A DNA stretch of 48,107 nucleotides, from the NCBI GenBank assembly GCA_012719395.1, contig JAAYAL010000073.1, positions 1-48,107 of the forward strand, in the 5' to 3' direction. The stretch comes from Gaiellales bacterium. GTDB taxonomy: Bacteria; Actinomycetota; Thermoleophilia; RBG-16-64-13. Position 1 is the first letter of the stretch. Every line of letters starts with the position of its first letter. A program made the position numbers and the translations under genes. Positions 8,931-27,148 of this stretch are shown here, piece by piece. The notes beneath the pieces are model-generated. The model made no database searches and had not been told where the DNA came from. It worked only from the letters and a program-made list of their open reading frames with translations.

Positions 8931-9000
8931 GCGGCGGCGCCGGTTTCCGGCTCGACGACGGCGGTTTCGGCCTGGCGGCGGCAGTTTCCGGTTCGGCGGC
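8931..9000. repeat. Short imperfect tandem repeat
   Basis: Three copies of a GGTTTCCGG-like core start at 8942, 8963 and 8983, spaced 20-21 bp, embedded in GGCGGC-rich sequence just after the stop of the GNAT-like gene. Purpose unknown. Confidence 0.4.
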
Positions 9001-10211
9001 TAGACCGGCATGTCGTAGATGCGCCAGGTCTTGTAGCGGTGCCCGCCCATGAACTCGCAGGCCCGGATGATCATGTGGTTGTCCTCCAGCAGGAGCGACA
9101 TATCGCACCAGCGGATGTTGCGGGACTGAGCGTATTGCTTCACCGTGTGATACAGCAACGCGTCTATGCCCAGACGGCGGTAGGGCGGCCTGATGCCGAA
9201 GAATATGAGCCGCATGCGGGGTATGTGCCGGCGCATGCGCAGCAGGCGGGCGGTGCGTATGGCGTCCGAATCCCCGTACCATCGCCACCGGGGGCGCAAG
9301 GCCCAGTTGGGGTCCGGGAAGGCGCCGAAGACGGCCGCCGGCTCTCCGTTCACGCAGGCGAACTGGGTGAGGCCGGGGTCAAGGATGGGCTTGAGCGTCG
9401 CGGCCAGAGCGTCTGCCTCGCCCTCAGTGATGGGGAGGAAGCCCCAGTTCTGCGACCAAGCCTCGTTGTAGATGCTGATGACGAGCCGGATCTCCTCCTG
9501 AAGCCGGCGCGGATCAATGGGACGGACGTCGATGCCTCGCCGTGTGGCGGCCAGGTGCGCTATCTGGGGCAGCCGTGGATCCGAGGGTGCGCAGACGTCC
9601 GTGATGTACGCGTGGTAGTCCTTGCTCTTGTGGAGGCCGTATCTCTCCAGCAGTTCCCCGTAGTACGGGTAGTTGTGAGTCTGCTCCACGCACGGCTCGC
9701 TCTGAAACCCGTCTATCAGCACACCCTGCCGCTCGTGTGTGGCATTGCTGTACTCTCCAGGTCCGCGCATGATGCGCGCGCCCTTGGCGGCCATCCACTC
9801 GCGGGCCGCGTCGAGCAGCGCGCGGGTGACATCGAAGTCATTGATGGTGTCGAAGAAGCCGAAGAAGCCGAAGCGGTCCTTGTACCAGTCGTTGAAGCGG
9901 TGGTTGATGGCCGCCGACACCCGACCCACCACCTCGTCACCCCGCCAAGCCAGGAAGTGAGTGACCATGGCCGTGCGGTGGTAGTCGTTCTGCAGGGTCA
10001 GCATCCCGGTCATGCCCAGTGCCTTGCTGCCCAAGAGATCGGCCCGCAGGGGGGGACTCCAGAAGCGGTCTCCCCGATACAGACGCCAGGGGAACTCAAC
10101 GAAATCCCGCAGACGCGAGCTTCCTAGCGGGATTTGCTCGACGCGCAGGGGTGCCACAAGGCGACCGCTAGGCAGCGGCGCTGCTGGGGGGTTGAAGGGC
10201 GGAGCACGCAC
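9000..10211 (-). CDS. GNAT-fold acetyltransferase-like protein (YghO-type)
   Basis: 403 residues. It resembles the group of large uncharacterised proteins that carry a C-terminal GNAT-like domain and end in a conserved SLLLEDNHMIIRACEFMG-type segment. The stretch FFGIRPPYRRLGIDALLY (about 330-347) fits the acetyl-CoA pyrophosphate loop (R-x-x-G-x-G/A) of GNAT enzymes. The N-terminal half contains FGFFGFFDTINDF and RGPGEYSNATHERQG, often seen in the same group. No substrate is known. The GTG start at 10211 has no strong ribosome site and a later GTG at about 10157 is possible. The gene stands alone between the ATPase operon and the divergent korA. Confidence 0.65.
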   Translation of the reverse strand: MRAPPFNPPAAPLPSGRLVAPLRVEQIPLGSSRLRDFVEFPWRLYRGDRFWSPPLRADLLGSKALGMTGMLTLQNDYHRTAMVTHFLAWRGDEVVGRVSAAINHRFNDWYKDRFGFFGFFDTINDFDVTRALLDAAREWMAAKGARIMRGPGEYSNATHERQGVLIDGFQSEPCVEQTHNYPYYGELLERYGLHKSKDYHAYITDVCAPSDPRLPQIAHLAATRRGIDVRPIDPRRLQEEIRLVISIYNEAWSQNWGFLPITEGEADALAATLKPILDPGLTQFACVNGEPAAVFGAFPDPNWALRPRWRWYGDSDAIRTARLLRMRRHIPRMRLIFFGIRPPYRRLGIDALLYHTVKQYAQSRNIRWCDMSLLLEDNHMIIRACEFMGGHRYKTWRIYDMPV

Positions 10212-26344: not shown

Positions 26345-26415
26345 CCATGACAGGGGAGCGGCCCCGTTCAGGAAGCTCAGACTACCTGTCCCTCAGCCCC
26401 CTCCCTTTCTCCTTG

Positions 26416-26445
26416 CGCCCTCTGGAGCCCATCCCCCAGAGGGCG
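26416..26445 (+). terminator. Hairpin terminator candidate
   Basis: CGCCCTCTGG (26416-26425) and CCAGAGGGCG (26436-26445) pair perfectly around ten bases, followed by the T-rich stretch TCTCAATCTCTGTACTT. Confidence 0.55.
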
Positions 26446-26520
26446 TCTCAATCTCTGTACTTCCTTGCGTTGCGTATTCCTGCGTGTGGAGTTGAATTCG
26501 TAGCAGCAGCCACCCGTGCC

Positions 26521-26548
26521 TTGTTCGGTGACGGGCTTGTGATATACA
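26521..26548 (+). promoter_or_regulatory. Promoter of the repeat-protein gene
   Basis: TTGTTC (26521-26526), a 16-bp spacer and TATACA (26543-26548), about 80 bp before the ATG at 26630. Confidence 0.4.
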
Positions 26549-26629
26549 CCTGCGAGCAGACTACGTCCAGGGGCTGGGCAATCGGGCGGCATGGCCGAGA
26601 ACCAGCGGTAGGCGGGAGGTGGGTATCCG

Positions 26630-27148
26630 ATGATGAGTACGAGCTCCAAAGGGGTCAGCCTGGCCGGGTTGGTGCACGCGGACGAGGTGAGCGTGGCCAA
26701 CGGCGTCATGGGCTTGGTTCGAGGCGGCAATATCAGCTTGAAGAACGGGGGAGCGGTGGCTCTACTGGCGAGCGAGGACGCCTCTCTGGCCAACGGGTAC
26801 TGCCGGTGGTCTCTGGCGGGCGAAAACGCCTCGCTGCGGCGGGTGGGCGCCGGCGTGGTGGCCACCGGGAACGATATGACGGTGGAACAGGGTGGAGGGG
26901 TCTTGGTAGCCGCTGGGAATAGGTTGAATCTCACCACGGGGGGTGGTGTGGCGTTGCTGACCGGCAAAGCGGAGGTGAGGCACAGCCACCTGGGGTTGCT
27001 GGTGGCCGGCAAGGCCACACTGGGAGAGGGAGCTCGCGTGCTGCTTGGCACCAAGGAAGCCATCGTACTGGGCGTCACCGTGGCGCTGGTTCTGAGAATG
27101 CTGGGCCTGGCCGGGAGAGGCGGGCGCCGCCGGCCGGCCAAAGCCTAG
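26630..27148 (+). CDS. Membrane-anchored 16-residue-repeat (beta-solenoid-like) protein, unrecognised
   Basis: 172 residues; ATG 26630 (or the adjacent ATG 26633) follows GGGAGGTGGG. Residues about 8-140 divide into about eight units of 15-17 residues with the pattern G-V-x-L-L-x-G-(x)4-L-x-x-G-G, for example GGAVALLASEDASLANG, AGVVATGNDMTVEQGG and GGVLVAAGNRLNLTTGG. Such short, Gly-punctuated, alternating hydrophobic repeats are typical of beta-helices. A hydrophobic helix (IVLGVTVALVLRML, about 145-160) and a basic tail (RGGRRRP) follow, so the solenoid is probably tethered to the membrane. No signal peptide is seen, so the solenoid may be cytoplasmic, as in bactofilin-like scaffolds, to which it shows no obvious sequence motif. 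Function unknown. It has its own candidate promoter. Confidence 0.7.
   Translation: MMSTSSKGVSLAGLVHADEVSVANGVMGLVRGGNISLKNGGAVALLASEDASLANGYCRWSLAGENASLRRVGAGVVATGNDMTVEQGGGVLVAAGNRLNLTTGGGVALLTGKAEVRHSHLGLLVAGKATLGEGARVLLGTKEAIVLGVTVALVLRMLGLAGRGGRRRPAKA

Follow-up and report, generated by a model that had tools for sequence, protein, structure and literature searches.

A predicted family of tail-anchored beta-solenoid proteins in Actinomycetota

The gene at positions 26630-27148 on the plus strand of the window, by which we mean the whole stretch of 48,107 nucleotides of Gaiellales DNA analysed here, encodes a protein of 172 amino acids (stop codon included in the coordinates), and our data are best read as placing it in a new family of beta-solenoids that are tail-anchored and face the cytoplasm. 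Sequence and structure prediction together make a solenoid tethered to the membrane very likely, and we infer with at best even confidence that such solenoids self-assemble into a membrane scaffold. Searches in the host class, the phylum and other groups yielded 28 full-length members, the window protein counted, and the family, unnamed and undescribed, is scattered through several Actinomycetota lineages.

The reading frame is preceded by a Shine-Dalgarno-like sequence (GGGAGGTGG, 26614-26622, plus strand), read directly upstream of the ATG at 26630, and a whole-genome search identified an orthologue with 46% identity and nearly equal length in G002, a genome of the host's family. The codon differences between the two genes amount to 72, 53 and 111 at positions 1, 2 and 3, with a dN of 0.53, a dS of 1.98 and a dN/dS of about 0.27, and this codon comparison shows the window ORF to be a coding gene under purifying selection. 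Further upstream, an intergenic block of roughly 62 nt (26385-26447) is nearly identical in G002, and its flanks have diverged. The block contains a perfect inverted repeat (26416-26445, plus strand; fold z = -4.0), a hairpin that is linked to the gene by position only. With three mismatches allowed, the block was detected, in single copy, in none of the 21 genomes searched other than the two of the family that carry the gene, and the conserved hairpin block may possibly be a regulatory site. No RNA family was detected in the window, and the vicinity of the gene showed neither a promoter nor a terminator consensus.

A first-pass annotation, made from the letters of the window alone, had described about eight Gly-punctuated repeats that are followed by a membrane helix and a basic tail, and the repeat statistics bear this count out. 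With the window protein left out, 13 relatives were used to train a repeat profile of 16 columns, which chains eight repeats of 15-16 residues at residues 17-141 (26678-27052, plus strand; spacings 15, 16, 16, 16, 16, 15 and 15). The chain scores 77.0, compared with a mean of 0.6, a standard deviation of 3.4 and a maximum of 14.3 in 1000 composition-preserving shuffles. BLOSUM self-similarity, computed over residues 10-139, is highest at a lag of 16 (z = 5.0) and shows secondary peaks at 15, 31 and 32; at lag 16 it reaches 0.39, and none of 500 shuffles exceeds 0.19 at its best lag. The repeat consensus is [GA]-G-[DN]-V-[ST]-[IVL]-x-Q-G-G-[AVC]-G-[hydrophobic x3]-A.

AlphaFold2 places strands in the same region. 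The model of the window protein (seven sequences) has a mean pLDDT of 81 and a pTM of 0.67, its repeat blocks mostly reach 86-93 and are almost all strand, and its sole helix spans residues 141-162. The relative L016 (twenty sequences) was modelled with a mean pLDDT of 91.8 and a pTM of 0.77; its repeats reach 96-98, short strands alternate with turns at rung spacing, and a helix follows at residues 128-153. Both models combine an all-beta repeat domain with a terminal helix, as a predicted beta-solenoid should look, and a beta-solenoid fold class is likely. Each repeat of 15-16 residues is predicted to form one rung, with the helix after the last rung, with strands at V.[VIL] and [VLI][VLI][VLI], and with turns at GG[DN] and [QN]GG between them. 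The beta-solenoid that had been proposed from the repeats is compatible with both models, neither of which is a confident non-solenoid prediction. Foldseek returned no PDB or viral structure at an E-value of 0.001 or better; the top matches were mixed solenoids with low TM-scores, and the weak PDB matches of the L016 model were mostly parallel beta-helices, including antifreeze proteins, passenger domains, tailspikes, bactofilin and left-handed beta-helices. As these matches are weak and mixed, the exact solenoid geometry is unconfirmed.

The helix at residues 141-162 (27050-27115, plus strand) is the predicted membrane anchor, as evidenced by the model, by hydropathy, with the top hydrophobic 19-residue window beginning at residue 144 (Kyte-Doolittle 2.17), and by the hydrophobic moment, and it is followed by a basic tail at residues 163-172 (RGGRRRPAKA region; 27116-27145, plus strand), so that the chain ends with RMLGLAGRGGRRRPAKA. 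The membrane helix and basic tail of the first-pass annotation are thereby recovered. All 28 members combine repeats of 15 or 16 residues with a C-terminal hydrophobic helix, as determined by profile and hydropathy, and by hydropathy all 28 have a single C-terminal helix of the transmembrane type without an N-terminal signal, the helix being present in both models; none of the 28 carries an N-terminal segment with transmembrane-like hydropathy, and in 26 the segment that follows the hydrophobic run carries a net positive charge. The low median helical moment (0.11) and the high median hydrophobicity (0.67) of the anchors across the family suggest that the anchor inserts rather than lies flat. 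In the window protein, the uncharged core of the anchor comprises just 12 residues before Arg156, compared with a family median of 16, and the window protein and its G002 orthologue, with an arginine after 12 apolar residues, have the weakest anchors of the family.

Conservation within the family falls almost wholly on structural Gly, Ala and Val residues, with G89 invariant and G122 and A144 nearly invariant. Whole rungs have been gained or lost between members, as seen from alignment indels of 16 and about 14 columns and from rung counts, and since such changes are expected of a solenoid, they favour the solenoid reading. Eight f38 proteins (L055-L058 and L060-L063) form a well-supported clade with a strict 15-residue repeat, the others having 16; a solenoid can absorb one residue in a turn. 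Several members contain cysteines within the solenoid, four of them in L016, and in L015-L017 cysteines occur at a recurrent repeat position (GGCGP, AGCGP, GGCQS), so that a solenoid fold would align them into a cysteine ladder.

The distribution of the family is patchy. The gene is present in 2 of 18 genomes of the host's family, and matches were found in 9 of 396 genomes of a phylum-wide sample and in 16 of 247 genomes of the class of G560. In the host class, 10 of 399 genomes match at an E-value of 1e-4, three of which are spurious MurB-like matches. Such MurB-like proteins (L006-L008 and L011-L013) are a trap for single-sequence searches; by eye they look like UDP-MurNAc dehydrogenases, and they were rejected as weak Gly/Ala/Val composition matches without repeats or a tail anchor. 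When genome contigs were scanned, a single-protein query found nothing, an alignment mixing 11 members proved too heterogeneous to serve as a query, and a subfamily alignment recovered five named loci. The named records of members are Actinomycetota metagenome-assembled genomes, one of them from Acidimicrobiia (L026), and because this locus has neighbours common to several f38 loci, the class of G560 is probably Acidimicrobiia as well. In G476, a copy of the family gene (L040, about 8975-9357) is broken into two frames and is thus either a frameshifted copy or an assembly error. An origin from plasmids or phages was rejected, as tblastn gave no match to the window protein among plasmids and none to L016 among phages.

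The genomic context was compared between lineages. In both the window and G002, two ABC-2-permease-like genes and a kinase-like gene (PF13671) precede the solenoid gene, with one extra ORF between kinase and solenoid gene in G002, and a GDP-mannose-dehydratase-type epimerase, a nucleotidyltransferase-like gene, a DegT aminotransferase and a regulator-like gene follow it; kinase, epimerase and aminotransferase were assigned by Pfam, the remaining genes by visual inspection and from their resemblance between the two loci. No neighbour is common to all lineages: sugar-nucleotide genes are found in f1, MttB and GAF-SpoIIE in f3, and exonuclease VII and 5'-nucleotidase, or MerR-TipAS and LppM-like genes, in the class of G560. 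A conserved operon partner was thus rejected, and as the neighbours differ between lineages, the context gives no consistent function. In f19, the family gene lies beside one that encodes an exported bactofilin-like protein of about four transmembrane helices (L034, L035, L036, L038, L040). At loci with enough flank the pair is mostly convergent and once on the same strand; it is not an operon, but the adjacency hints at a related role at the membrane. The bactofilin-like proteins at L034, L035, L038 and L040 share beta-solenoid-type repeats and membrane segments with the family but differ by a signal peptide, exported N-terminal repeats and a multi-pass anchor; two of the four have a weak PF04519 match (E 2e-4, below the cut-off).

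The window protein matches no Pfam, NCBIfam or PHROGs family below an E-value of 0.05, the best hit of a PDB sequence search (the VgrG/gp5 needle) reached only E 0.004, and a literature search for bacterial tail-anchored beta-solenoids found nothing relevant; the earlier statement that no named family shows this pattern holds, and no described family was matched significantly. Scattered weak profile matches of the 28 members include many beta-solenoid families at sub-threshold level, such as FapA, the VgrG/gp5 needle, DUF2345, OstA, Hexapep (one member, E 0.07) and an ice-binding-like adhesin. The VgrG/gp5 needle, FapA, OstA/LptD and hexapeptide solenoids resemble the family in fold class and in these weak HMM matches, but they have other repeat patterns, lack a tail anchor and show no significant similarity, and the rungs of the hexapeptide left-handed beta-helix acyltransferases are near 18 residues, compared with 15-16 here. 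The cytoplasmic part of ElaB and YqjD is not known to be a beta-solenoid, and no member of the family matches the DUF883 profile of these proteins at E 0.1, but the anchors are alike: DUF883 proteins also lack an N-terminal signal and have a C-terminal Gly-rich transmembrane helix with an Arg-terminated basic patch behind it. In ElaB and YqjD, the glycine-rich helix precedes a positive patch that ends in di-arginine (PMC5525287).

This type of anchor also nourishes the main rival of the scaffold reading, a non-polymerising adaptor in which a rigid solenoid at the inner membrane docks a client, as is thought of YqjD with ribosomes. The members are small and vary in rung number, and a transmembrane anchor at the C-terminus would impede end-to-end stacking there, all of which would suit an adaptor. 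There is, however, no evident client site, as the conserved positions G89, G122 and A144 are structural, nor are there neighbours common across lineages, and we regard an adaptor as possible but rather doubtful. A different topology, with the basic tail inside and the repeats facing outward as a surface or adhesin-like module, would satisfy the positive-inside rule, and many beta-solenoids in the Foldseek lists are extracellular adhesins or ice-binding proteins. Against such an export stand the lack of a signal peptide-like segment in all 28 members and the cysteines of several members, and it is unusual for an N-terminal domain of 140 residues to be translocated without a signal; we consider an exported solenoid improbable. 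That the ORF is a low-complexity or chance frame within GC-rich DNA might be suspected from its Gly-, Ala- and Val-rich product and from an overlapping antisense ORF of 254 amino acids (26377-27141), but purifying selection, the orthologue, the family and the repeat statistics all contradict this. The family and the codon statistics already refute a chance ORF, the probability of which is negligible, and the antisense ORF, for which there is no support, is most likely a GC artefact.

Bactofilins (PF04519; BacA, CcmA, ThBac) are the closest analogue, as they are small Gly-punctuated beta-solenoids linked to the inner membrane, as is predicted for the family, and the analogy that we propose would be that of a nucleotide-free polymer. 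A highly diverged bactofilin was therefore weighed, also in view of the bactofilin-like gene next door in the f19 lineage and of bactofilin structures among the Foldseek matches, none of which is significant. However, not one of the 28 members matches PF04519 at E 0.1, hhalign of the family against 13 Actinomycetota bactofilins gave probabilities of just 5.6% and 9%, no bactofilin was found in the host genome at E 1, and true bactofilins occur together with the tail-anchored family in f19 genomes, which indicates that the two are separate. Bactofilins attach by an N-terminal peptide, with an N-terminal transmembrane helix in about 3% (PMC12448750), whereas the family has its hydrophobic helix at the C-terminus and by hydropathy no hydrophobic segment at the N-terminus, and its repeats of 15-16 residues follow a QGG/GGD pattern that sets them apart. 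A diverged bactofilin is thus already disfavoured, and we rate it as even less probable than an exported solenoid. In sampled genomes, PF04519 was matched in 0 of 99 of the host class at E 1e-10 and in 35 of 198 across the phylum at E 1e-6.

The preferred reading remains a tail-anchored cytoplasmic solenoid that self-associates into a membrane scaffold, and for this explanation as a whole the chances appear evenly balanced. As in ElaB and YqjD, the C-terminal helix would enter the cytoplasmic membrane post-translationally and leave the solenoid in the cytoplasm, an orientation suggested by the lack of a signal and by the free cysteines of several members, which fit a reducing compartment. Copies would associate through their regular rung faces or their free N-terminal edges, either laterally or with their N-terminal ends together, and would build patches or short polymers on the membrane by which other proteins are organised. 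Such a scaffold would work like a bactofilin, with the anchor at the C-terminal end hindering C-to-C stacking. Several observations speak against the scaffold explanation: the positive-inside rule would favour a basic tail inside the cell and thereby a solenoid on its outer side, the apolar stretch of the window anchor meets an arginine after 12 residues, and the family is patchy with neighbours that differ between lineages. The bolder idea of a cytoskeleton-like polymer unrelated to bactofilins, in which membrane-inserted solenoids would form patches or filaments in Actinomycetota, including the host class, in whose sampled genomes no bactofilin was found, is in our estimation unlikely, slightly more so than an adaptor.

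Bactofilins are the best-known bacterial polymers built from beta-solenoids. Even without polymerisation, the family described here is unnamed, has a clean architecture and escapes the current profile libraries. If the scaffold explanation is true, the family would provide a small regular scaffold in poorly studied Actinomycetota, and the existence of another solenoid family, unrelated to bactofilins and attached to the membrane by its opposite end, would point to more than one origin of this design.
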